64,000 nt of DNA from Achromobacter dolens (lineage in GTDB: Bacteria > Pseudomonadota > Gammaproteobacteria > Burkholderiales > Burkholderiaceae_B), in assembly GCF_902859745.1 (NCBI RefSeq), contig NZ_CADIJW010000017.1, positions 1 to 64,000 on the forward strand, given 5' to 3'. The number at the start of each line of letters is the position of its first letter. The stretch's first letter is position 1. Both the position numbers and the translations under genes were made by a program. Shown piece by piece: positions 46,021 through 60,030 of this stretch. The notes below the pieces were generated by a model. That model saw nothing but the letters and a program-made list of their open reading frames with translations. It had not been told where the DNA came from and ran no database searches.

Positions 46021-46131
46021 CGCTGTTACAAAATAGTTCGGCCAGACATTCAGGTTTTTTTGCCGTATTGCGTCTTCTTCTTGATTCCGTGGGGCATGGG
46101 GCCCATCGATAGCGGATCAGGAGCAGAAGCT

Positions 46132-48564
46132 GTGGTTCACAAGAAAATGGGACAAGGCGCGCCGGTGGCCGCGCGCCTGACGATGGCCGCGATGGCGGCA
46201 GTGCTGGCGTTCGGTCCGGGGATGGCCGACGCGCAGGCGACGGCGCCCGTCGCCATCGACATGCCGGCGCAATCGCTCGACCAGGCGCTCAAGCGGCTGG
46301 CCGAAACGCACGGCCTGCAGATTTTCTATGCGCCCCAGACCGTGGCCGGCATGCAGGCGCCGGCACTGTCCGGGTCCATGACGCCACAACAGGCGCTGGC
46401 CGCGCTGCTGCAGGGCAAACCATTGCGGCTGCGGCAGGAAGGCTCGGCCACCATCATCGAACCCGAGGCGGCCAGCGGCGGCGCCACCGTGATGGCGCCG
46501 ATCGAGGTCAGCGCCTCGCGCACGGCCAGCAACCTGGTCAGCCCCGTGCAGCAGACCATCGTGCTGGAGCGCGACGCCTTGCAGGAACTGCGCACCGGCT
46601 CGGACAGCCTGGCCAGCGTGCTGGCCAAGACCGTGCCGGGCATGGCCGATTCCAGCCGCACCATGACCGACTACGGCCAGACGCTGCGCGGACGCGGCGT
46701 GCTGGTGCTGGTGGACGGCATCCCGTTGAACACCAACCGCGACTCTTCGCGCAATCTGGCCAACATCGACCCGGCCACCATCGAGCGCGTCGAAGTGCTG
46801 CGCGGCAGCAGCTCGATCTACGGCGCCGGGGCCACCGGCGGCATCGTCTCGATCACCACCCGGCCCGCCGGCGGCGAACCGGTGGCCGAAACCACCGTGA
46901 CCGCCGTCAGCCCGCTGAGCCGGCTGAATTCGGACGGGCTGGGCGGCCAACTGCAGCAGCATTTCGCCGGCAGCCAGGGCATGCTGGACTACGCGCTGGA
47001 CCTGGGCGCGCGCCACAACGGCGCCTCCTACGACGCGCGCGGTCGCCGCATCGCGCCCGAACCCAGCCAGGGCGATCTGTTCGACTCCAACATCTACAGC
47101 CTGGGCGGCAAGCTGGGCCTGCGGCTGGACGACAAGCAGCGCCTGCAGCTGTCGGCCAGCTACTACAACGCCGACCAGCATTCCGATTACACCTCCGATC
47201 CCTCGGTCGGGCGCCTGCCGCCGGGCACGGCGCGCGCGCTGCCGCTCGGCGGCCTGGACCTGGCCGACCAGAACCAGATCCGCAACACGCTGGTGAACCT
47301 CGAATACCAGCATCTGGACCTGCTGGGCAGCAAGGTCACGGCGCAGATGTACTACCGCGACTACTACACGCGCTTCACGCCGTTCGACGCGCGCGCCGTG
47401 GTCACGCGCGGCGGCAACGTCGACCAGGTCATGCAGAACACAAAGGTGTTCGGCAGCCGGCTGACGATCGACACGCCGCTGGGCGAGCAGTCGAAACTGC
47501 TGTGGGGCATGGACTTCAACCAGGAACGCAGCGACATGCCGATCGACGTGTTCGACGCGGCCGCCTACGACGCCAGCGGCGGCCGGGTGTTCCGCAAGAC
47601 CGGCCGCCTGACCTACATGCCCGAGCTGACCTCGCGCAGCACCGGCATCTTCGGCCAACTGGAGCACCGCTTCAACGAGCAATGGTCGGTGCAGGGCGGG
47701 GCGCGCTACGAGTACGCCACCGCCCGCTTCGGCGACTTCGTGCCCCTGTCGCAGTCGCGGGTGGCGTCGCCAGCCTCGGTACGGGGCGGCTCGGTCAGCT
47801 ACGACGCCTTCCTGTTCAACGCGGGCCTGACCTACGCGCCGATCCGCGGCCAGGAGCTGTACGCCAACTTCAGCCAGGGCTTCCAGTTGCCGGACATCGG
47901 CGTGCAGATGCGCAACGCGCGGCCGGGCTTCGACATCGGCTCGTCCGACCTGCAGCCGGTCAAGACCAATAACTACGAGCTGGGCTGGCGCGGCGGGGTG
48001 GGCAACACGACCGCGTCGCTGGCGCTGTTCTACACCACCTCCAAGCTGGGCGATGTGCAGAGCTTCAACAACGGCCTGATCCTGACGCGCACCGAAGAGC
48101 GCATCCACGGCATCGAGGCGACGGTGGACTACCTGACCGACGATGAGAAATGGGGCACGGGCGGCACGTTCACGTGGATGAAGGGACGCGAGCGGCCCGA
48201 CAACGGCCAGTGGCGCGACATGACCGGCTACCGCATTCCGCCGCTCAAGCTCACCGCGTACCTGCAGTACCGGCCCAACGAGCGCTGGAGCAACCGCATC
48301 CAGGCCAATTACTTCGGGGCCAAGGACTACCGGCTGGATGGCGTCGAGAGTTTCGGCCGCCGCGACGTGGGCAGCTACTTCACGGTGGACCTGATGAGCC
48401 GCTACCAGGTCACGCCGAAGGACACGCTGATCGTCGGGGTCGAGAACCTGTTCAACCGCGACTATTACCCGCTCTATAGCCAGTTGATGCGCACCAGCAC
48501 CAATACCAGCCGCCTGCCGGCCCCGGGCACGGTGCTGACGCTGACGTACCAGCATCGCTGGTAG
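46132..48564 (+). CDS. TonB-dependent transducer with N-terminal signalling domain (ferric siderophore type)
   Basis: 810-residue outer-membrane receptor. I choose the GTG at 46132, preceded by CAGGAG; it yields a good signal peptide (LTMAAMAAVLAFGPGMADA). The STN signalling domain follows at about 40-110 (DMPAQSLDQALKRLAETHGL, GSMTPQQALAALLQGKPLRL). Next come the plug (LAKTVPGMADSSRTMTDYG, RGVLVLVDGIPL, VEVLRGSSSIYGAGATGGIV) and the barrel ending LTYQHRW. The STN domain contacts the FecR-like protein in the periplasm. The ligand, a siderophore or related chelate, cannot be read. Bordetella has similar BfrZ/BupIR and HurIR systems. Confidence 0.92.
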   Translation: MVHKKMGQGAPVAARLTMAAMAAVLAFGPGMADAQATAPVAIDMPAQSLDQALKRLAETHGLQIFYAPQTVAGMQAPALSGSMTPQQALAALLQGKPLRLRQEGSATIIEPEAASGGATVMAPIEVSASRTASNLVSPVQQTIVLERDALQELRTGSDSLASVLAKTVPGMADSSRTMTDYGQTLRGRGVLVLVDGIPLNTNRDSSRNLANIDPATIERVEVLRGSSSIYGAGATGGIVSITTRPAGGEPVAETTVTAVSPLSRLNSDGLGGQLQQHFAGSQGMLDYALDLGARHNGASYDARGRRIAPEPSQGDLFDSNIYSLGGKLGLRLDDKQRLQLSASYYNADQHSDYTSDPSVGRLPPGTARALPLGGLDLADQNQIRNTLVNLEYQHLDLLGSKVTAQMYYRDYYTRFTPFDARAVVTRGGNVDQVMQNTKVFGSRLTIDTPLGEQSKLLWGMDFNQERSDMPIDVFDAAAYDASGGRVFRKTGRLTYMPELTSRSTGIFGQLEHRFNEQWSVQGGARYEYATARFGDFVPLSQSRVASPASVRGGSVSYDAFLFNAGLTYAPIRGQELYANFSQGFQLPDIGVQMRNARPGFDIGSSDLQPVKTNNYELGWRGGVGNTTASLALFYTTSKLGDVQSFNNGLILTRTEERIHGIEATVDYLTDDEKWGTGGTFTWMKGRERPDNGQWRDMTGYRIPPLKLTAYLQYRPNERWSNRIQANYFGAKDYRLDGVESFGRRDVGSYFTVDLMSRYQVTPKDTLIVGVENLFNRDYYPLYSQLMRTSTNTSRLPAPGTVLTLTYQHRW

Positions 48565-48654: not shown

Positions 48655-50328
48655 ATGTTGCGCCTGACCGAAATCATCCTGCCCCTGTCGACCTCCCAGG
48701 ACGACATCGAAAACACCCTGCGCGCCGCGGCCTGTAGCCGCCTGGGGATCGCCCCGGAAGCCCTGCGCGCGTTGACCATCTTCCGCCGCAGCTATGACGC
48801 GCGCAAGCGCAGCGCCATCACGCTGACCTATTCCGTGGATGTCGAGGTGGCCGACGAGGCCGCCGTGCTCAAGCGCGTCGCCGGGTTGCGCACCGTCATG
48901 CCGACGCCGCCCATGGAATACCAGTACGTCGGCCACGCGCCGGCCGATCTGCCCGAGAGCCGTCGCCCCGTCGTGATCGGCTTCGGCCCCTGCGGCCTGT
49001 TCGCGGCGCTGATCCTGGCCCAGATGGGGTTCCGGCCGATCATCCTGGAGCGCGGCCGGGTGGTGCGCGAGCGCACCAAGGACACCTGGGGGCTGTGGCG
49101 CAAGAACACCCTGCAACCCGAGTCGAACGTGCAGTTCGGCGAGGGCGGGGCGGGCACGTTCTCGGACGGCAAGCTCTCGACCCAGGTCAAGGACCCCAAG
49201 CATTACGGCCGCAAGGTGCTGCAGGAATTCGTCGCCGCCGATGCGCCGCCCGAGATCCTGTATGTCAGCAAGCCGCACATCGGCACCTTTCGCCTGGTCA
49301 AGATGATCGAGCAGATGCGCGCGCAGATCGCCGCGCTGGGCGGCGAGTTCCGCTTCGAGAGCCGCGTGGACGATATCGAGATCGAGGACGGCCGGGTGCG
49401 CGGCGTGCGTCTGGCGGGCGGGGAGTTTATTGCCGCCAGCCACGTGGTGCTGGCGGTGGGCCACAGCGCCCGCGACACCTTCCGCATGCTGCACAAGCGC
49501 GGGGTGTTCATGGAAGCCAAGCCGTTCTCGCTGGGGTTCCGCATCGAGCATCCGCAGTCGGTGATCGACCGCGCCCGCTTCGGTCCCAGCGCCGGCCATC
49601 CGGTGCTGGGCGCGGCCGACTACAAGCTGGTGCACCATGCCGGCAACGGCCGCGCGGTCTACAGCTTCTGCATGTGCCCGGGCGGCACCGTGGTGGCCGC
49701 CGCGTCGGAGCCCGGCGGCGTGGTCACCAATGGCATGAGTCAGTATTCGCGCAACGAGCGCAACGCCAATGCCGGCATCGTGGTCGGCATCGAGCCCAAG
49801 GACTTTCCCGGCATCGAGGACTCGCCGCTGGCGGGCATCGACTTCCAGCGCCATTGGGAAAAGCGCGCTTACGAACTGGGCGGCGGCGATTACAGCGCGC
49901 CGGCGCAGTTGGTGGGCGACTTCCTGGCGGGCCGGCCGTCGACCGCGCTGGGCAGCGTCACGCCGTCGTACAAGCCGGGCGTGACGCTCACCGACCTGTC
50001 GTCCAGCCTGCCGGACTACGCCATCGCCGCCATCCGCGAAGCCCTTCCGGCGTTCGAGCGCCAGATCAAGGGCTTTTCCATGCACGACGCGGTGCTGACC
50101 GGCGTCGAGACGCGCACCTCGTCGCCGCTGCGCATCACGCGCCGCGACGATTTCCAGAGCATGAACACCGACGGGCTGTTCCCGGCGGGCGAGGGCGCGG
50201 GCTACGCGGGCGGCATCATGTCGGCCGCCATCGACGGCATGAAGGTGGCCGAGGCGGTGGCGCTGCACCTGCTGGGCCGCGACGACATCACCGGCGGCAA
50301 TCGTCGCGGCGCCAGCGACGACTATTGA
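48655..50328 (+). CDS. FAD-dependent oxidoreductase of the COG2509 type
   Basis: 557-residue flavoprotein. The N-terminal ~95 residues form a small domain with FRRSYDARKRSAITLTYSVD. Then come the dinucleotide-binding GxGxxG-like GFGPCGLFAALILAQMGFRP (109-128), FGEGGAGTFSDGKLSTQVKD, an AVGHSARDTF motif and a C-terminal FAD site GLFPAGEGAGYAGGIMSAAI. Conserved across bacteria and often annotated as 'FAD-dependent protein'. The reaction is not known to me. It starts 90 bases after the receptor, but the function seems unrelated. A strong hairpin follows. Confidence 0.85.
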   Translation: MLRLTEIILPLSTSQDDIENTLRAAACSRLGIAPEALRALTIFRRSYDARKRSAITLTYSVDVEVADEAAVLKRVAGLRTVMPTPPMEYQYVGHAPADLPESRRPVVIGFGPCGLFAALILAQMGFRPIILERGRVVRERTKDTWGLWRKNTLQPESNVQFGEGGAGTFSDGKLSTQVKDPKHYGRKVLQEFVAADAPPEILYVSKPHIGTFRLVKMIEQMRAQIAALGGEFRFESRVDDIEIEDGRVRGVRLAGGEFIAASHVVLAVGHSARDTFRMLHKRGVFMEAKPFSLGFRIEHPQSVIDRARFGPSAGHPVLGAADYKLVHHAGNGRAVYSFCMCPGGTVVAAASEPGGVVTNGMSQYSRNERNANAGIVVGIEPKDFPGIEDSPLAGIDFQRHWEKRAYELGGGDYSAPAQLVGDFLAGRPSTALGSVTPSYKPGVTLTDLSSSLPDYAIAAIREALPAFERQIKGFSMHDAVLTGVETRTSSPLRITRRDDFQSMNTDGLFPAGEGAGYAGGIMSAAIDGMKVAEAVALHLLGRDDITGGNRRGASDDY

Positions 50329-50442: not shown

Positions 50443-51420
50443 TCATTCCGCCTTCATGTTGGCGCTCTTGACGATCCCGCCCAGCCGCTTGTCCTCGGCG
50501 GCGATGAAGCTGCCGAACTTCTCCACCGAGCCGGGAATCGCCTCGTAGCCCGCGTCCGCCAACTGCTGCCGGACCTTGGGCGTGGCCATGACGTCGGCGA
50601 TGGCCTGGTTCATCGCCTTGATGACGTCCTGCGGCGTGCCCTTGGGCGCATACATGCCGCCCCAGTGGGTGATGTTGATCTGGGCGAAGCCCTGTTCCGC
50701 CGTGGTGGGCGTGTCGGGCAGCAGCGGCGAGCGGTGGTCCGCCGTGGCCGCCAGCGCGCGCACCCGGCCCGAAGCGATATAGCTGCGCACCGACACCGCC
50801 GCCTCCGAGGCCGCGTCGACCTGGCCGCCCATCAGCGCGGTGGAACTCTCGGAACCGCTCTTGTAGGGCACGACCGTGACCGGCACCTTGAGCGCCTGGC
50901 CCAGCATTTCCGCGACGAAGTGGCCAGTGCTGCCGGTGCCGGCGGTGGCGAACAGGATGGGGCGCTTCTCCTTGGCGGCCTGTTGCTGCCAGTCCTTGAG
51001 CGAATGGATCTTGCTGTTGGCGCTGACGACAATGACCGAGGACGATTCGAACAGCAGTCCGACCGGCACCAGATCGCTGTCCTCATAGGGCATCTTGCTG
51101 CGCAGCAGCTTGTTGGTGATGGCGCCATTGCCGGCCACCAGGAAGGTGTAGCCATCGGCCGGGGCCTTGGCCACCATGTCCGAGCCGATGATGCCGCCCG
51201 CCCCGGGGCGGTTGTCGATGATGACGGGCTGCTTGAGATGATCGGACAGCCCGGTGGCGAAGATCCGCGTCATGTTGTCGAGCTGGCCGCCCGCCGAAAA
51301 CGGCACGACAAGTCGCACCGGCTTCTCGGGCCAGGCGGCGGCGCTCGCGGCGGACGCCGTCATCACGCCCGCCGCGAGCGCGAGGGCGTACAGGGGATGC
51401 TTGAATCGGTCGAACTTCAT
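50443..51420 (-). CDS. Bug-family tripartite tricarboxylate transporter receptor
   Basis: 325-residue periplasmic binding protein of the Bug/TctC family. Signal peptide LYALALAAGVMTASAASA, then WPEKPVRLVVPFSAGGQLDN and VIIDNRPGAGGIIGSDMVAK, the two carboxylate-binding loops, and TPQDVIKAMNQAIADV. The start at 51420 is 38 bases after the aconitase gene stop, so it is the third gene of the prpB-acn-bug operon. That links it to a tricarboxylic acid such as 2-methylcitrate, citrate or an analogue. No TctA/TctB genes are in the window. Confidence 0.92.
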   Translation of the reverse strand: MKFDRFKHPLYALALAAGVMTASAASAAAWPEKPVRLVVPFSAGGQLDNMTRIFATGLSDHLKQPVIIDNRPGAGGIIGSDMVAKAPADGYTFLVAGNGAITNKLLRSKMPYEDSDLVPVGLLFESSSVIVVSANSKIHSLKDWQQQAAKEKRPILFATAGTGSTGHFVAEMLGQALKVPVTVVPYKSGSESSTALMGGQVDAASEAAVSVRSYIASGRVRALAATADHRSPLLPDTPTTAEQGFAQINITHWGGMYAPKGTPQDVIKAMNQAIADVMATPKVRQQLADAGYEAIPGSVEKFGSFIAAEDKRLGGIVKSANMKAE

Positions 51421-51458
51421 GTTGTCTCCTTGGTAGGGCGTGAGGCGCTGCCTCATCT

Positions 51459-54128
51459 TTATGGTTGTGAAACGCGCTGCGAATCCTCCAGGGCCTGGCG
51501 CAGCACGGCGGGCAGGATGCCGCCCGCGCGCCAGATATCCATTTCGTGTTCGTTGTCCAGGCGGCAGAGCAGCGCCAGCGTGCGCGGCGCGCCAACGCCG
51601 CGGATCACGCACCGCGCCTCGCCCTGGGGCGCCAGGTCGGCCGGAATCTCGAGGTCGAACGTCTCGCTGCCGTCCAGGCCCAGCGTCAGGCGCGTGACGC
51701 CTGACGGCAACTGCAGCGGCAGGACGCCCATGTTCACCAGGTTGGAGCGGTGGATGCGCTCGAAGCTCTCGGCGATGACCGCGCGCACGCCCAGCAACCG
51801 CGTGCCTTTCGCTGCCCAGTCGCGCGACGAGCCATTGCCGTAATCCTTGCCCGCGACCACCACCACCGGCACGCCCGCGTCGCGGTAGCGCATGGCCACG
51901 TCGTAGATCGGCTGGATCTCGCCGTCGGGCTGGTGGCACGTCAGTCCGGCCGGGCCTTGTGGCAGCAGTTCGTTGACCAGCGTCGGCTGCGCGAAAGTGG
52001 CGCGCATCATCACGCGGTGGTTGCCGCGGCGCGCCAGGTAGGTGTGCAGCGCATCGGCCGGCACGCCCAGCGACAGCAGGTAACGCCCGGCGCTCGATTC
52101 GGGCGGGATCTCGTTGGCGGGCGAGATATGGTCGGTGGTGACCGAGTCGCCCAGGATGAGCAGGGCGCGCGCGCCCTCGATGCGCACCGCGCCGGTCTGC
52201 GGCGGCACGTCCAGATAGGGCGGGCGGCGCAGGTAGAGGCTGTCGGCGTCCCACGGATAGCAGGCGCCGCTGCCGCCGGGCAGGGCCTGCCAGGCCGGAT
52301 CGCCCTCGAATACGTCGCGGTAGCGTTCGGTGAACATCGCCGGCCGCAAGTAGCCTGCCACCACGGCGTCGATCTCGGCGTCGCTGGGCCACAGGTCCGC
52401 CAGCATCACGGCCGTGCCATCGGCGCGCCAGCCGACCGCTTCGCGTTGCAAGTCGCGCATGACCGTGCCGGCCAGCGCATAGGCCACCACCATCGGCGGC
52501 GACACCAGGTAATTGGCGCGCGCCAGCGGATGGACACGGCCGGGGAAATTGCGGTTGCCCGACAGCACCGCCGCCACGCGCGGCGAGCCGTCCGCAATGC
52601 GTTGCTCCACCGCCGGCGCGAGCGAGCCCGACAGCCCGGCACAGGTCGCGCAGCCATAGCCGGCGGCGTGAAAACCCACCGCGTCCAGCGCGTCCTGCAG
52701 TCCGCTGGCGCGCAGGTAGTCGGTCACCACCCGCGAGCCGGGCGTGAACGACGTCTTGGTCCACGCCGCGGGCCGCAGCCCCAGCGTCCGCGCCTTGCGC
52801 GCCAGCAGCCCGGCGGCCACCAGCAGGCGCGGATTGGAGGTGTTGGTGCAACTGGTGATCGCCGCCAACACCACCGCGCCCTGCGGCAGGTCGGCATGCT
52901 CATGGCGGGGCAGGGCGGCGGTGGCCTTGGCGAAGGTCAGCGGCACTTCCTCCAGCGGCAGGCGGTCCTGCGGCCGGCTGGGACCGGCCGCCACGCGCGT
53001 GAACTGCGACAGATCGACCTCGACCAGCCGGCTGTAGCCGGGACGTTCCTGCGTGCGCCAGAGCCCGGCGGCCTGGGCATAGCGCCGCACGCGTTCGATG
53101 TGCGCCGCGTCGCGGCCGGTGCGGGCCAGATAGGCCAGGGTTTCCTCGTCGACCGGGAAGTAGGCGCAGGTCGAGCCGTACTCGGGCGCCATGTTCGCCA
53201 GCGTGGCGCGGTCTTCCAGCGATAGCACGCCGTCCAGCGCCTCGCCGGTGAACTCGACGAACTGCGCCACCACCTTGGCCTCGCGCAGGACACGGGTCAG
53301 GTTGAGCACCAGGTCGGTGGCGGTGACGCCGGGCGCCGGCTGGTTGAACAACCGCACGCCGATGACCTCGGGCGCGCGCAACACCAGCGCGTCGCCCAGC
53401 ATCGCGGCCTCCGCCTCGATACCGCCGACGCCCCAGCCCAGCACGCCCAGGGCATTGACCATGGTGGTGTGGCTGTCGGTGCCGACCAGGGTGTCGGGAC
53501 AGGTCACCGCCGCGCCCTGCGGCGTGCGCCGCATGGTGGCCACCTCGGCCAGGTACTCGATGTTGATCTGGTGCAGGATGCCCTTGCCGGGCGGCACCAG
53601 GCGCAGATTGTCGAACGCGCCCTGGGCCCATTTGAGGAAGGTGTAGCGTTCGCGGTTCTGGCGGTATTCGCGCGCCTCGTTGGCCTGGCGCGCGCCGGCA
53701 TGGCCGCCTTCCTCGGCGATCAGCGAATGATCGACGATCAGGTCGGTGGGAATGAGGGGATTGATGCGGCGCGGGTCGCCGCCGCGCGCCTGCAGCGCAT
53801 CGCGCATGGCGGCCAGGTCGATCAGGCTGGGAATGCCGCTGACGTCCTGCGCCAGCACCCGCGTCGGATGCAGCCAGACATCGGCGGGCGCGTCCGGCGC
53901 CGGCGCGTCGGGATGATAGGCCTGCAACAGGGCCAACGCGTGCGGCCGATGGCCGTGGAGGGCACTTTCATGCCGCAACGCGTTCTCGATCAGCACGCGC
54001 GCCACGTAGGGCAGGCGGCCGGCCTGCAGGCCGTGCTCGGCGGCGAAGGCCGGCACGCTGAAATGGCGGCCATATTCCGCGTCCGGGTCATAGGCCTGCA
54101 GATAGGGATCTTGCTCGGGGGGCTGCAC
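51459..54128 (-). CDS. Aconitase A-family hydratase (candidate 2-methylcitrate/methylisocitrate isomerase)
   Basis: 889-residue iron-sulfur hydro-lyase, length as for AcnA (about 890). The three 4Fe-4S cysteines are present: C427 in ITSCTNTSNP, C493 and C496 in GYGCATCAGLSG. Catalytic-region motifs: GTDSHTTMVNALGVLGWGVG, GDSVTTDHISPANEI, and GKDYGNGSSRDWAAKGTRLL with the swivel-domain arginine and serine. AcnA normally reads CTTCIGNSG at the cluster; here it is CATCAGLSG, an unusual change. The gene lies between prpB (59 bases upstream) and a Bug receptor. In the methylcitrate cycle an aconitase supplies 2-methylisocitrate to PrpB. It also could be a plain second aconitase. Confidence 0.92.
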   Translation of the reverse strand: MQPPEQDPYLQAYDPDAEYGRHFSVPAFAAEHGLQAGRLPYVARVLIENALRHESALHGHRPHALALLQAYHPDAPAPDAPADVWLHPTRVLAQDVSGIPSLIDLAAMRDALQARGGDPRRINPLIPTDLIVDHSLIAEEGGHAGARQANEAREYRQNRERYTFLKWAQGAFDNLRLVPPGKGILHQINIEYLAEVATMRRTPQGAAVTCPDTLVGTDSHTTMVNALGVLGWGVGGIEAEAAMLGDALVLRAPEVIGVRLFNQPAPGVTATDLVLNLTRVLREAKVVAQFVEFTGEALDGVLSLEDRATLANMAPEYGSTCAYFPVDEETLAYLARTGRDAAHIERVRRYAQAAGLWRTQERPGYSRLVEVDLSQFTRVAAGPSRPQDRLPLEEVPLTFAKATAALPRHEHADLPQGAVVLAAITSCTNTSNPRLLVAAGLLARKARTLGLRPAAWTKTSFTPGSRVVTDYLRASGLQDALDAVGFHAAGYGCATCAGLSGSLAPAVEQRIADGSPRVAAVLSGNRNFPGRVHPLARANYLVSPPMVVAYALAGTVMRDLQREAVGWRADGTAVMLADLWPSDAEIDAVVAGYLRPAMFTERYRDVFEGDPAWQALPGGSGACYPWDADSLYLRRPPYLDVPPQTGAVRIEGARALLILGDSVTTDHISPANEIPPESSAGRYLLSLGVPADALHTYLARRGNHRVMMRATFAQPTLVNELLPQGPAGLTCHQPDGEIQPIYDVAMRYRDAGVPVVVVAGKDYGNGSSRDWAAKGTRLLGVRAVIAESFERIHRSNLVNMGVLPLQLPSGVTRLTLGLDGSETFDLEIPADLAPQGEARCVIRGVGAPRTLALLCRLDNEHEMDIWRAGGILPAVLRQALEDSQRVSQP

Positions 54129-54187
54129 GATGCGTTTGTCTCCGTTCCGTTGTCGCCGGGTCGGCGCCCGGCTGTCTTCAGCGCGTA

Positions 54188-55096
54188 TCAGGCGGCCTTG
54201 CCAGCGTACAGCGCGTCCAGCCGCGCTTCATAGGCGAAATAGCCGATGCTTTCATAGAGTTCCATGCGCGTCTGCATCTGGTCGATCATGCCGCGCTGGG
54301 TGCCGTCGCGGCGGATCGCCTCGTAGGTGCGCTGGGCCGCGCGGTTCATGGCGCGAAACGCCGACAGCGGATAGAGCACCATGGCGACCTGGGCGGCTGC
54401 CAGTTCCTGCACCGTCAACAGCGGCGTCTGGCCGAATTCGGTGATATTGGCCAGGATGGGCGCTGGCAGCGCGCGGGCGAAATCGCGGAAGCCCTCGAGG
54501 TCGTGGACCGCTTCGGGAAAGGCGATGTCGGCGCCGGCCTCGATGCAGGCGGACAGCCGCTCCAACGCGCTCTGCCGGCCTTCGCTGGCCAGCGCATCGG
54601 TGCGGGCGATGATGACGAAGTGCGGATCGGTACGGGCGTCGACCGCCGCCTTGATGCGATCGACCATCTCCGGCAGGGACACCACTTCCTTGTTGGGGCG
54701 ATGGCCGCAACGCTTGGCGCCGGCCTGGTCCTCGATCTGCATGGCGGCGGCGCCGGCGGCGATCATCGAACGGGTGGTGCGCGCCACATTGAAGGCCGAC
54801 GCGCCAAAGCCGGTGTCGACATCGACCACCAGGGGCAGGGGGCAGACCTCGGTGATGCGGCGCACGTCCGTCAGCACGTCCTCCAGGCCGACGATGCCCA
54901 GGTCGGGCACGCCCAGCGAACCCGCCGCCACGCCGCCGCCCGACAGGTAGATGGCGCGAAAGCCAGCCTGCCGCGCGAGCAGCGCGTGGTTGGCGTTGAT
55001 GGCGCCGACCACCTGCAGAGGCTGCTCGGCCTGCATCGCCATGCGCAGCCGCAGGCCGGCGCTGGCCGGCAGGTCGGGTTCGGGGGAAGTCATCAT
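54188..55096 (-). CDS. prpB: Methylisocitrate lyase
   Basis: 302-residue lyase of the ICL/PEP-mutase superfamily, splitting 2-methylisocitrate to pyruvate and succinate. The PrpB hallmarks are [20 protein letters not shown] (49-68), metal site [19 protein letters not shown] (89-107), [20 protein letters not shown] (121-140) with catalytic C130, and [18 protein letters not shown]. Near E. coli PrpB in length (296). The tandem ATGs at 55096 and 55093 follow GGAG. It is the first gene after the sigma-54 site at 55145-55159 and is divergent from prpR. Related lyases with other acids as substrates exist, so the exact substrate should be kept open. Confidence 0.93.
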
Positions 55097-55144
55097 GGGG
55101 AGCTCCGTGGTGGGTAAGGGCAGGGGAGGAATGACTTCCATCAA

Positions 55145-55159
55145 GCAAGATACATGCCA
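55145..55159 (-). promoter_or_regulatory. Sigma-54 promoter of the prpB operon
   Basis: On the minus strand TGGCATG-TATC-TTGC, with the invariant GG and GC separated by exactly 10 bases; consensus is TGGCACG-N4-TTGC. Transcription would begin about 12 bases on, giving a leader near 35-40 bases before the prpB ATG at 55096. The divergent neighbour encodes a sigma-54 activator. Confidence 0.82.
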
Positions 55160-55271
55160 ATCGCATCCGCACTGGGGCCGAAGGCGGTGGAGCGGGGTAG
55201 GGTTTTCATAATTGAAATGCGGCCATCGCAATGATGAAATCCCCTCTTCGAGTTTCGTTACCGGTGCCGCC

Positions 55272-57218
55272 ATGCTGACTGTCCCGACGCCCGTGGAATC
55301 CGACCTGGCGGCGCTGCCGCGCATCTGGGCCGTGGGCGTGGCGCGCATCGCCCGCACCTTCGCCCAGATCCTGCCCAGTTATGCCCAGCGCGGCGAATTC
55401 AAGCTGATCGAGGCCGGTTTCGACGCGGCCGCCAGCGTCATCAACGAGGCCGCGCGCCAGGGCCGCGTCGACGTGGTGGTGGCCGCCGGCCTGAACGGCA
55501 GCTATCTGCGGCGCCACGTCACGGTGCCGGTGGTGCAGGTCAAGATCAGCGGCTTCGAGGTCATGAACGCGCTGGCCACCGCACGCCGGATCTCGCCGCG
55601 CGTGGCCCTGCTGGGCCAGCACGCGCAGTATCCCGAGCTGCAGACCTTCATGCAGACCTTCGCCGTCGACATCCTGGTGCGCACTTACCGCGACCAGGAC
55701 GACGCGCTGGCGCAGGCCAAGCAGCTCAAGGACGAAGGCATCGAGGTCCTGGTCGGTTCGGGCCTGATCGTCGACTACGCCGAGCGCATGGGACTGGCCG
55801 GCGTGCTGGTGTATTCGCTGGCCACGGTGGCCGCGTGCATCGAGGACGCCATCGAGATCACGCGCCTGCAACGCGTCGAGTCGGGCCGGCGCGACTACCT
55901 GAACGCCGTGCTGGCCAATCTCGACGAGGGCGTGGCCGCCGTTGACGCCGCCGGCCGCGTGCAGGCGCTCAATCCCGCCGTCGAACGCCTGCTGGGCATC
56001 ACCGCCGCCGGCCTGGCCGGACGGCGGCTGGAGGAAATATCGCCGGCGCTGTCGCTGGACGAGGTGCTGCGCACAGGCAAGCGCGAAGCCGAATCGGTGC
56101 ATCGGCTCGGCGGCAAGATGGTGGTGGTGAACCGCATTCCGCTGGCCAGCGGCGCCGGCCTGTCGGGCGCGGTGCTGACCTTGCAGGAAGCCGGCGCCAT
56201 CCACCGCGCCGACCGCAGCCTGCGCACGCGGGCCCGCACCCCAGTGCGCACCGTGCGCTACACGCTGGACGACCTGCACGGCCAGTCCGCCCCGTTGGCA
56301 AAGGCCCGCATGCTCGGCCTGCGCTACGCCCGGGTCGATTCGACCGTGCTGATCGGCGGCGAAAGCGGCACCGGCAAGGAAGTCATGGCCCAGGGCATCC
56401 ACCAGGCCAGCGCGCGCCATCATTTCCCCTTCATCGCGGTCAACTGCGCCTCGCTGCCCGAAACCCTGCTGGAAAGCGAGCTGTTCGGCTACGAGGACGG
56501 CGCCTTCAGCGGCGCGCGCCGCGGCGGCAAGCCCGGGCTGTTCGAGGCGGCCCACAACGGCACGCTGTTCCTGGACGAGATCGGCGACATGCCGCCGGCG
56601 TTGCAGATCCGCCTGCTCCGCGTGCTGCAGGAGCGGCAGGTGATGCCCGTGGGCGGCAGCGAACCGGTGCCCGTCAATGTGCGCATCATGGCTGCCACTC
56701 ATCGCGACCTGGCGGCCATGGTGGCGGCCGGCGCGTTCCGCCAGGATCTCTTTTTCCGCCTGAACATCCTGCGCATCGACATGCCGACACTGCGCGAGCG
56801 CCGCGACGACATCTGGCTGCTGGCGCAGCACCTGTACCAGCGGGTGCGGCAGAACCTGGGCCTGGCCGGCGAGCCGCCGTTGCCCGAAGCCTTGCGCGAC
56901 GCGTTGCTGGCGCACGACTGGCCCGGCAACATCCGCGAACTGGAGAACGTGCTGGAACGCCTGGCGGTGTTCCTGGCGGAAATGCCCGAGACACCGCTCG
57001 ACCCGGAAGTGCGGCGCATCCTGGCCGACGTGGCGCCGGAACTGACGCGAGGCGCCGCCCACTCGGAGCCGGGCGACCTGGCCTCGCACGGCCGGCGCCA
57101 GCAGGCGGCGCATGTGCGCGAGGTGCTGACCCGCTGCGGCGGCGACCGGCGCAAGGCCTGCGAACAGTTGGGAATCAGCCCGACCACGCTGTGGCGGTGG
57201 TTGCGCACGGGCGCTTGA
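55272..57218 (+). CDS. prpR: Sigma-54-dependent propionate/methylcitrate regulator
   Basis: 648-residue activator of sigma-54 RNA polymerase. Domains: PrpR N-terminal ligand domain (about 10-180, [40 protein letters not shown]), PAS (about 195-300), AAA+ (about 325-560; Walker [28 protein letters not shown], Walker [12 protein letters not shown], sensor DLFFRLNIL) and a C-terminal Fis-type HTH ([18 protein letters not shown]). The sigma-54 contact loop reads GAFSGA in place of GAFTGA. I prefer the ATG at 55272; a TTG at 55212 would add 20 residues. PrpR proteins respond to 2-methylcitrate. It should act on the sigma-54 promoter at 55145. Confidence 0.94.
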
Positions 57219-57219
57219 C

Positions 57220-58179
57220 TCATTTCGACGACAGCTTGAGCCCTTCGGCGACCTTGCCCAGTGCGGCATACTCCCGCTCGATCTGCGCGCGGAAGGCGTC
57301 GCCCGTCACGATGGCGATCTGTTCGCCCGCATCCTCGACAAAGCTGCGCGTCGCCGCGGATTGCGCCGCGGCGGTGAATGCCCGCTCCAGCGCCCGCACG
57401 CGCTCGGGCGGCGTATTCCTGGGCGCCAGAATGCCGCGCCACAGCAGCGTCTGTTCCTCACCCAGGCCCAGTTCGTTCAGGCTGGTGGCTTGCGGCAGCG
57501 CCGCCACTTTGTCGGCCGAGGTCAATTGGAGGCATTTGACCTTGCCGCTCTTCACGTAGGGCAGCACCGGGGGAATGGATCCCACATACATGTCGATGTG
57601 CCCGCCCAGCAACGCCAGCAGGGTGTCGCCAGCCCCTTTGTAGGGAATGTCGCGTTGATGGATGTCCTGGCGGTTGAAGATCCGTTGCGCCGCCAACTGT
57701 CCCGGGCCGCCCGCGCCATCGGTGCCGAACGTATAGCGATTCGGCGCCTTGCGCAGCAACTGCATCAGTTGCTTGCCGTCGTCCGCGGCGAAGTCGTGCT
57801 GCACGCACATGACGTAGGGCGCGCTGGTCAACTGGGCAACGGCAATGTAGTCCTTGGGCGTGTAGGAAACCGGCGTGGTGTGCGGCGCCACCGTCACCGG
57901 CCCCAGCCAGACCCCGGCGATCGTGTTGCCGTCGGGCGCGGCGCGCACCATCTGCGTGACGCCGATGCTGCCGCCGGCGCCGCCCACGTTGACCACCACC
58001 ACCGGCGCGCCCAGATGCGGTTCGGCGTCCTTGGCCAACATGCGGAAGAAGCCGTCGGTGCCGCCTCCCGCCGTGGTGGGAACGATCAGGCGGATCGGCT
58101 CGGCGGCAAGGGCGCCGCCCGCGATCAGCGAGCCAAGGGCCAGGGCAAACGCCCGGGCGGTGAAGGAAAAACGGGGCAT
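57220..58179 (-). CDS. Bug-family tripartite tricarboxylate transporter receptor
   Basis: 319-residue periplasmic binding protein. Signal peptide FALALGSLIAGGALAAEP, then IRLIVPTTAGGGTDGFFRML and VVVVNVGGAGGSIGVTQMV. The ligand loop GGGTD carries the conserved aspartate; the second loop VGGAGGSIG differs from the usual NRPGAGG, so the ligand may differ. It is 66 bases downstream of the amidohydrolase gene and probably in its operon. It converges on prpR with one base between the stops. Confidence 0.9.
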   Translation of the reverse strand: MPRFSFTARAFALALGSLIAGGALAAEPIRLIVPTTAGGGTDGFFRMLAKDAEPHLGAPVVVVNVGGAGGSIGVTQMVRAAPDGNTIAGVWLGPVTVAPHTTPVSYTPKDYIAVAQLTSAPYVMCVQHDFAADDGKQLMQLLRKAPNRYTFGTDGAGGPGQLAAQRIFNRQDIHQRDIPYKGAGDTLLALLGGHIDMYVGSIPPVLPYVKSGKVKCLQLTSADKVAALPQATSLNELGLGEEQTLLWRGILAPRNTPPERVRALERAFTAAAQSAATRSFVEDAGEQIAIVTGDAFRAQIEREYAALGKVAEGLKLSSK

Positions 58180-58245
58180 GGCGGTCTCCTGAGGTGGCGC
58201 CGCCTGAAAGCCGGCGCCACGGGTCGTTGATTGTTATGGGAAAAA

Positions 58246-59055
58246 TCAGCCTTCAAAATCGAACAGCAGCTTCGGGGTATCGCGCAGGATGATGTCGCGC
58301 GGGCCCGGGTCGGGCAGCCAATCGCCCAGCCAGTCCAGGCAGCGCCCGTAGTCGACCTCGCTCTCGTGCGATACCCACGGCCAATCCGTGCCCCAGAGCA
58401 GGCGCTGCGCGCCGGCTTCGCGCAGCAGCAGGGCGCTCAACGCCGCCGCATCCTGGCCCGCCAGACGGTAGGGCGCGGACAGCTTGATCCAGGTCTGGCC
58501 TTGGGCAAGCGCTTCGCGCAACAGGCCCAGCGTCGGAAATCCCGGCGTCAGGCCGCCAAAATGGTCCAGGACCAGCCGCACGCCGCTGGCCAGGATCGGA
58601 GGGAGCACCGCGGCCAGATGCTCGCCTTCGACATAGACCTCGACGTGCATGCCGCGCTCGCGCAACCTTGGATAAAGGGCGCGGTAGGCGCGGCTGCCGC
58701 TGTCTGGCAGGGGCCGGCGGCGCAACCAGTTCAGGCGCACGCCGCGCACGCCATGGGCGTACAGCATGTCCAGCTCCGCGTCGCCGATCTCAGGCTCGAC
58801 GAGGGCGGTGCCGCGCAGGCGGCCGCCCGCGACCTGCAATGACCGCAGCAACAGGCCGTTGTCGCTGCCGTAGAAGCTGGGCGCGGTCAGGACGCCATAG
58901 CGGATGCCGTGGGCGTCCAGGACTCGCAGGTACTCATCGACTTCGGCATTGTGCAAGGGCGCCGAATGGCGGCCGGCAACCAGAGGCAGATCGGTGCGCA
59001 GGACGTGGGCGTGGCAGTCCGCGGCGCCAGCGGGAAGATTGAGCGGGGGTGTCAT
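58246..59055 (-). CDS. Amidohydrolase-2 family hydrolase (LigI/PDC lactonase-like)
   Basis: 269-residue TIM-barrel hydrolase. Metal-site motifs: AADCHAHVLRTDLPL (His-x-His), LVLDHFGGLTPGF (histidine) and RLLWGTDWPWVSHES (aspartate). The pattern CHAHV and GTDWPW is typical of 2-pyrone-4,6-dicarboxylate lactonase-like and sugar-lactonase-like members. I choose the start at 59055 because an AGGA site lies 7 bases upstream; 59064 is possible. It is divergent from a LysR gene (72 bases) and followed by a Bug receptor, so it may open a lactone imported through that receptor. Confidence 0.86.
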   Translation of the reverse strand: MTPPLNLPAGAADCHAHVLRTDLPLVAGRHSAPLHNAEVDEYLRVLDAHGIRYGVLTAPSFYGSDNGLLLRSLQVAGGRLRGTALVEPEIGDAELDMLYAHGVRGVRLNWLRRRPLPDSGSRAYRALYPRLRERGMHVEVYVEGEHLAAVLPPILASGVRLVLDHFGGLTPGFPTLGLLREALAQGQTWIKLSAPYRLAGQDAAALSALLLREAGAQRLLWGTDWPWVSHESEVDYGRCLDWLGDWLPDPGPRDIILRDTPKLLFDFEG

Positions 59056-59127
59056 GCACGGCATCCTATCAATAGGATTTACTTTCTTCTAATTAAAGTT
59101 CCTGGCGGTTATGTATAAAATTTCCTG

Positions 59128-60030
59128 ATGAGACGATTTTCCATTCCCCAGATGGAGGCCCTGCTGGCGATCGCCCGGCTGGGTTCCTTCCAGGCGGCCG
59201 CCGAGCACATGAATGTGACCCAGCCGACCATTTCCCTGCGCATCCGCGAACTGGAATCGGCGCTGGGCGTACGCCTGTTCGAGCGCGAGGGCAGGCGAGC
59301 AGTGCTGACAGCGGAAGGGGTGCTGGCGCGGCGCTACGCCGAGCAGGCAGTCGGCGTGCTCGATGAACTGGAAACCCGCCTGCGCACCGGCGACCCCTTA
59401 CAGGGCCGGCTGCGGGTGGGCGCGTCGGAAACCATGGCGATGGCGTGCCTGCCGGCCATCGTCCGGCAACTCGAACAGCGCTATCCGCGCCTGCAGGTCG
59501 AACTGACCATCGCCAACAGTCTGGTGCTCAGCGAGCGCCTGAACACCAACCAGCTCGATATCGCCTTTCTCATCGACGCCGGCGTCAGCCATCATTTGCA
59601 GGTTGAACCGCTGGCCTGGGCCGAGGTGGCCTGGATCGGGCTGGACCCGCGCCCGCGGTTGCGGGCAGTGGACCTGGCCGCGCAGAAATTATTCGTGGTG
59701 CCGCCGCCGTCCCCGCTGCACCAGGTAGTGGCCGCCTGGTGCAGCCAGGAACGCACGCCATTGCCGGAATTCAGCACCTGCACAAGCGTGGCCATCATCG
59801 TCGGACTGATAACCGCCGGCGTCGGCATGAGTGCGCTGCCGGTCAGCGTGATGGCCGATGCGCTGGCCAGAGGCACCGTGGTGCGCTACGAACAGGAGCG
59901 GCCGTTCGCTCCGCTGCGATTGTGCGCGGCATATCCGCGGGTGGCCGACATGGCCGGGCTGGACGCCGTGGTTCGTATCGCAAGGCAGGAACTGGCGCAG
60001 GCGCCGTATTTTTCGGTGATCGAGGCTTGA
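59128..60030 (+). CDS. LysR-family transcriptional regulator
   Basis: 300 residues. HTH at 1-60 (MEALLAIARLGSFQAAAEHM, TQPTISLRIRELESALGVRL), effector domain with RVGASETMAMACLPAIVRQL. The ATG at 59128 lies close to a TATAAAAT element. The 72-base AT-rich divergent region implies control of the amidohydrolase-Bug genes. CbL/GcvA-like features are not evident; effector unknown. Confidence 0.9.
   Translation: MRRFSIPQMEALLAIARLGSFQAAAEHMNVTQPTISLRIRELESALGVRLFEREGRRAVLTAEGVLARRYAEQAVGVLDELETRLRTGDPLQGRLRVGASETMAMACLPAIVRQLEQRYPRLQVELTIANSLVLSERLNTNQLDIAFLIDAGVSHHLQVEPLAWAEVAWIGLDPRPRLRAVDLAAQKLFVVPPPSPLHQVVAAWCSQERTPLPEFSTCTSVAIIVGLITAGVGMSALPVSVMADALARGTVVRYEQERPFAPLRLCAAYPRVADMAGLDAVVRIARQELAQAPYFSVIEA

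Follow-up and report, generated by a model that had tools for sequence, protein, structure and literature searches.

What does a PrpR-type regulator control when the operon divergent from it encodes a 2-methylisocitrate lyase (PrpB), an aconitase and a Bug/TctC periplasmic receptor, with no methylcitrate synthase gene (prpC) beside them? This question is raised by a locus of Achromobacter dolens in a window of 64,000 nucleotides (NCBI RefSeq assembly GCF_902859745.1, contig NZ_CADIJW010000017.1, positions 1 to 64,000 of the forward strand; the contig is labelled C17 here). The answer that we favour, with confidence that is about evenly balanced, is that the four genes may form a scavenging cassette with which a methylcitrate-type acid would be taken up from outside and broken down.

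Gene content of the locus

All four frames are open, with prpR divergent from prpB, which is followed by the aconitase and Bug genes (span 50443-57218). The identities, the order and the link with PrpR, which a first-pass annotation had read from the sequence alone, were borne out. The regulator gene (55272..57218, plus strand) encodes a PrpR_N domain, a PAS domain, a sigma-54 AAA+ activator domain and a Fis-type helix-turn-helix (PF06506, PF00158 and PF02954); reading of the frame also allows an upstream TTG start at 55212 on the same strand instead of the ATG at 55272. The genes for the lyase (54188..55096, 302 amino acids), the aconitase (51459..54128, 889 amino acids) and the Bug receptor (50443..51420, 325 amino acids) are all located on the minus strand, with gaps of 59 bp between prpB and the aconitase gene and 38 bp between the aconitase and Bug genes.

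The regulator scored 596 bits against the PrpR model TIGR02329 (cut-off 499) and 540 bits against a second PrpR model, NF011953, which is below the cut-off of 703. With the regulator above the TIGR02329 cut-off and the lyase above that of TIGR02317, the locus has the divergent PrpR-prpB arrangement of a prp operon; prpC, and either prpD or acnD-prpF, which such an operon would also include, are not in it. Searches with curated models and domains found no prpC, prpD or prpF at the locus, and contig C17 gave no citrate-synthase match. A plain propionate operon was therefore rejected. The unit shares with the PrpR-controlled prpBCD and prpBC-acnD-prpF operons the divergent PrpR, the TTTCA/TGAAA half-sites, the sigma-54 element and a true PrpB, but it is without prpC, prpD, acnD and prpF; in their place it has a Bug receptor and an aconitase of the AcnA type.

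Methylcitrate genes elsewhere in the genome

The first-pass annotation had described prpC, prpD and prpF as missing, which is true of the operon and not of the organism, since these genes were found on two other contigs, C59 and C21, of the genome (6.29 Mb in 114 contigs). On C59, prpB, prpC and prpD lie together next to an mdh-like gene, with a GntR-UTRA regulator, sdh-like genes and a second citrate synthase not far off (mdh and sdh assigned by eye on the basis of their first residues), and on C21 acnD-prpF lies behind an FCD-GntR regulator. Matches to PrpD are present on C59, C3 and C7 and matches to PrpF on C21 and C66, and the aconitase domain has seven matches in the genome, with other proteins of the AcnA type encoded on C18 and C7 among them. 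With prpBCD on C59 and acnD-prpF on C21, a complete methylcitrate cycle should run without the operon of the window.

The first-pass annotation had named a full prp operon at another site, controlled by this PrpR, as a finding that would speak against its scavenging idea, and half of this applies. A full set does exist, split between the two contigs, but neither locus has a PrpR-type palindrome or a sigma-54 element upstream of its operon, and therefore the second PrpB encoded in the window is unneeded for the ordinary cycle. From their position, the GntR proteins presumably control the methylcitrate genes on C59 and C21. Upstream of the C21 genes lies ATTGTTGACAAT, which is one base off ATTGTCGACAAT, the palindrome ascribed in the accessible part of PMC9765439 to the GntR-type PrpR of Pseudomonas aeruginosa.

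Recurrence of the four-gene unit

The four-gene unit occurs in eight genomes, at protein identities of 78-98% and with identical gene order in all eight. Within the genus, PrpR_N was found in 9 of 43 genomes and six of the nine contexts are complete units; across the family, PrpR_N matches occur in 94 of 268 genomes. Outside the genus, reading of 80 of the 101 PrpR_N places gave two more units, L221 and L224; the 21 unread places are distributed over g22 (10), g3 (6), g42 (2) and g2 (3, below the cut-off). Carriers were sought via PrpR_N, a search that cassettes without a PrpR_N neighbour would escape.

On the Bug side of the unit, L127 and L129 alone share a long flanking stretch (3.4 kb), and each has less than 60 bp in common with the window. 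Flanking DNA on the PrpR side is shared by the window, L129 and L221 over 0.7-2.8 kb, by L130 and L224 over 1.1 kb, and by L126 and L128 over 259 bp located far out; the flank of L127 on this side is about 1.5 kb long and ends at the contig end. The presence of the same four genes in mostly unrelated flanks argues that both Bug and PrpR are components of the unit. Base composition of the units resembles that of their surroundings. L221, which comes from another genus, is placed next to the window's group in both the PrpR and the aconitase trees, and this suggests transfer between genera. A search of plasmid DNA matched 39 records, none above 80% of the query, and the Bug protein stayed below 60% in all 925 plasmid records. 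The search of E. coli DNA gave weak matches, the three rows shown being glrR.

Recurrence also bears on whether the unit is a decayed prp operon that lost prpC, prpD and prpF and gained Bug by chance. Its regulator, lyase and promoter do resemble their prp-operon counterparts. However, all four genes are found in the same order in 8/8 carriers and in differing settings, and the aconitase is not the AcnD of prp operons; decay is a very improbable origin for such a conserved four-gene unit and was rejected.

The regulator and its promoter

A PrpR_N domain search of the genome found the window's PrpR as the sole match, and the regulator therefore looks dedicated to the four-gene unit. The gap between prpR and prpB contains the palindrome TTTCAATTATGAAA together with a sigma-54-type element. 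The palindrome (TTTCATAATTGAAA, TTTCA-N4-TGAAA; 55204..55217, no strand) is the likely PrpR operator by prediction, and a further TTTCA half-site is located 22 bp beyond it on the side away from prpB. The predicted -24/-12 element (TGGCATGTATCTTGC; 55145..55159, minus strand) was identified by pattern match upstream of prpB.

Seven of the eight cassettes contain the exact palindrome, the exception being L130, and in all seven its distance to the sigma-54 element is 57-58 bp; the element itself was found in all eight. The palindrome was obtained 0 times in 2000 single-base shuffles. Among 19 other PrpR-prpB gaps, 13 contain the exact palindrome and 18 a sigma-54-like element by the pattern used. 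The genome of A. dolens holds six exact palindromes and none of the reversed pattern, and the window's palindrome alone among the six has a sigma-54 element at the 57-58 bp spacing. The PrpR enhancer of Salmonella is listed as CGTTTCATGAAACG, with 2-methylcitrate as the signal, in the part of PMC4987338 available to us; its half-sites are identical to those of the cassette palindrome while the spacing differs.

Tree building with 88 PrpR proteins placed the eight cassette regulators in an 18-row clade together with 10 regulators adjacent to prpBCD (support of 100 in the Shimodaira-Hasegawa-like approximate likelihood ratio test, SH-aLRT), apart from the regulators adjoining other Bug operons. 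A clade of cassette and Bug-context regulators was rejected by the approximately unbiased (AU) test on 36 of the 88 rows, which were picked after the larger tree had been viewed (p-AU 0.0003). The PrpR trees were built by a quick method with SH-aLRT support only, and the 88-row tree is without row L188. The cassette regulator likely descends from a propionate-operon PrpR and by this kinship is predicted to be a sensor of 2-methylcitrate.

Lyase and aconitase

The lyase passed both PrpB models, with 398 bits against TIGR02317 (cut-off 354) and 484 bits against NF008455 (cut-off 353), and its nearest solved chains are 2-methylisocitrate lyases. Residues are retained at 18 of 18 positions that we take to be those of the PrpB active site, placed via alignment with the solved lyase chains. 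By model and active site it is a true PrpB, with predicted activity on 2-methylisocitrate. In a tree with 41 other PrpBs, the cassette lyases form a clade of their own on a long stem (0.76).

The aconitase scored 1012 bits against the AcnA model TIGR01341 (cut-off 945), which it passes, and 814 bits against the AcnD model TIGR02333 (cut-off 1420), which it fails. It has the Fe-S cysteines, the catalytic motifs and the single-chain architecture of the AcnA type, but it stands on its own branch. The cassette aconitases form a clade with a long stem (1.48), outside nine AcnDs (eight of other genomes and the organism's own) and 31 AcnA-type rows; the tree includes 30 of 80 outside aconitases, and the placement of the cassette clade relative to AcnD is weakly supported (91/64). 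The residues flanking the Fe-S cysteines are unlike those of both AcnA and AcnD. The possibility of a hidden AcnD was rejected, as the window's aconitase has 13 of 66 AcnD-diagnostic residues (13-16 across the eight cassettes) against 12 of 66 in the paralogue on C7; with a control paralogue scoring 12, the values of the cassettes are not evidence for AcnD likeness. The housekeeping-type aconitase on C18 has 2 of 66.

Among named genomes, the 80 listed matches to the aconitase are other aconitases with at most 53% identity, and their loci contain no prpB, prpC, prpF or PrpR at the threshold used and one weak PrpD-like match. Among 399 genomes of the order, the best match besides the window has 54% identity; the seven other carriers lie outside this sample, and the order-wide search therefore gives no frequency. 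Of 29 loci viewed from that search, some with aconitases of 46-54% identity adjoin Bug, PrpF-like or lyase genes.

A different tricarboxylate would be compatible with the long branches of lyase and aconitase. Bug might import another tricarboxylate or an alkyl-citrate, with the aconitase and lyase acting on the analogue and PrpR retuned. The unusual residues beside the Fe-S cysteines are consistent with such a change, and related Bug operons in the family and the order pair Bug with other hydratases, isomerases and lyases. However, the PrpB active site is retained at all positions checked, the operator is unchanged, and none of the PrpB enzymes reported to date cleaves isocitrate, according to the accessible text of PMC11982470. 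We rate another substrate as rather improbable.

Receptor and transport

The Bug frame scored 195 bits against PF03401 (cut-off 27), and its closest solved chains are BugD and Bug27. Receptors with 83-87% identity are present in Bordetella hinzii, B. genomosp. 12 and B. trematum (among 12 protein-database matches at the threshold used). The window's receptor shares with the Bug/TctC receptors of Bordetella-type bacteria the PF03401 domain, the relatives BugD and Bug27 and the absence of adjacent TctAB, but differs in being tied to a PrpR operon with a lyase and an aconitase. Most Bug receptors are without an assigned ligand, as stated in the part of PMC11452294 open to us. A genome search for TctAB, as the first-pass annotation had proposed, located TctA-type permeases at six places, none of which is on C17.

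Related operons

The first-pass annotation knew of no described uptake-based version of methylcitrate use, and we likewise found neither this nor a Bug-linked prpB-aconitase operon in the literature searched, which left subscription journals mostly outside. Advenella mimigardefordensis has a prpC-acnD-prpF-prpB region with two tctC genes nearby, as described in the accessible part of PMC5373536, and thus resembles the present locus in that Bug-type receptors are encoded close to methylcitrate genes. According to the same part of that report, it differs in its complete set including prpC and in its Xre and LysR regulators, and its receptors adjoin 3-mercaptopropionate genes and are not in an operon with prpB.

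Six of 89 contexts in the family combine PrpR_N with Bug, an aconitase-superfamily hydratase and a lyase of the isocitrate lyase (ICL) superfamily. In L168 (7958-13920) a PrpR_N regulator is divergent from Bug, hydratase and lyase genes, and similar arrangements are seen in L174, L175, L176, L186 and L191. Scanning of L168 revealed a two-subunit hydratase (HacA/LeuC-type and LeuD/DmdB-type) and an ICL-superfamily lyase under the PrpB cut-off. This context appears to be an uptake operon built on a hydratase and a lyase, of the dimethylmalate type or another, and follows a logic like that of the window's unit. A dimethylmalate route was rejected for the window, since it calls for a hydratase of two subunits and another kind of lyase, while a single-chain aconitase and a true PrpB are present there.

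L267 (68-5269) and L268 have AcnA-type aconitases with 53-54% identity to that of the window, located beside a PrpF-like isomerase (under the PrpF cut-off in L267) and Bug genes, and are possibly aconitate-type uptake operons. In L274 and L281, from other families of the order, an AcnA-type aconitase, a PrpB-like lyase and Bug adjoin each other, the lyase of L281 being under the PrpB cut-off. Within the A. dolens genome (G000), contig C7 (L027:7025-10610) has a divergent AcnA-type aconitase, just under the TIGR01341 cut-off, which overlaps the start of an FCD-GntR frame. On contig C66 (L029:5480-8639) the gene after that of a PrpF-family protein (383 bits) matches Bug weakly; the pair adjoins a LysR regulator, read by eye, and is a possible further Bug-linked isomerase unit.

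Neighbouring genes

At lower window coordinates than the cassette are a TonB-dependent siderophore receptor (46060-48564; TIGR01783, above cut-off) and a gene for an FAD-dependent protein (48655-50328), which converges on the cassette. On the other side (57220-60030), a second Bug gene is convergent with prpR and is followed by genes for an amidohydrolase, a distant relative of 4-sulfomuconolactone hydrolase, and for a divergently encoded LysR regulator; these are probably a separate catabolic unit.

A proposed scavenging role and its alternatives

The scavenging idea, already put forward in the first-pass annotation, is favoured by the position of Bug as the last gene in 8/8 units with largely unrelated flanks and by a PrpR that appears dedicated to the window's unit. 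PrpR would sense 2-methylcitrate and activate the predicted sigma-54 promoter of the prpB operon. Bug would capture an external methylcitrate-type tricarboxylate and pass it to a TctAB-type permease encoded elsewhere. The divergent aconitase would produce 2-methylisocitrate by hydration of 2-methylaconitate, and cleavage by the lyase would yield pyruvate and succinate. Should 2-methylcitrate be the imported acid, its first dehydration may be carried out by PrpD or AcnD-PrpF from the other loci; alternatively, the divergent aconitase would have to perform it. More specifically, the cassette may be a lower half of the methylcitrate cycle fed by uptake, in which 2-methylcitrate, 2-methylaconitate or 2-methylisocitrate comes from other organisms and PrpR serves Bug, aconitase and PrpB while the organism's own cycle is run under other regulators, a proposal that we hold tentatively, at somewhat less than even confidence.

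Several points weigh against scavenging. The organism's own prpC can make 2-methylcitrate, so the signal for PrpR could be internal. The unit contains no TctAB and no dedicated enzyme for the dehydration of 2-methylcitrate to 2-methylaconitate; its aconitase is no more AcnD-like than the control paralogue, and the long branch of its lyases could signal an altered substrate. Bug genes are frequent in the genome (six matches, that of the cassette included, in the 231 kb viewed). All seven other carriers have prpB, prpC and prpD side by side, and none of the eight carriers found is without an ordinary prpBCD cycle.

This presence of prpBCD in the seven other carriers, with prpC and a full cycle in the A. 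dolens genome, counts in favour of a possible booster for the organism's own cycle, in which its own 2-methylcitrate would activate PrpR during propionate use, the extra aconitase and lyase would drain toxic intermediates, and Bug would recapture leaked acid or have another role. In P. aeruginosa, intermediates accumulating without PrpB were reported to be more toxic than those without PrpC, in the portion of PMC11982470 accessible to us. This main rival accounts for the enzymes but not for the constant presence of the receptor as last gene, and it leaves unexplained why the regulator sits here and not at prpBCD with its own prpB. We consider it somewhat unlikely.

If scavenging is the true role of the cassette, acids of the methylcitrate cycle would be carbon sources exchanged between organisms, beyond their role as internal intermediates. 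The Bug receptors would gain a testable class of ligands, and a propionate-operon regulator would be seen to have become tied to an uptake gene.

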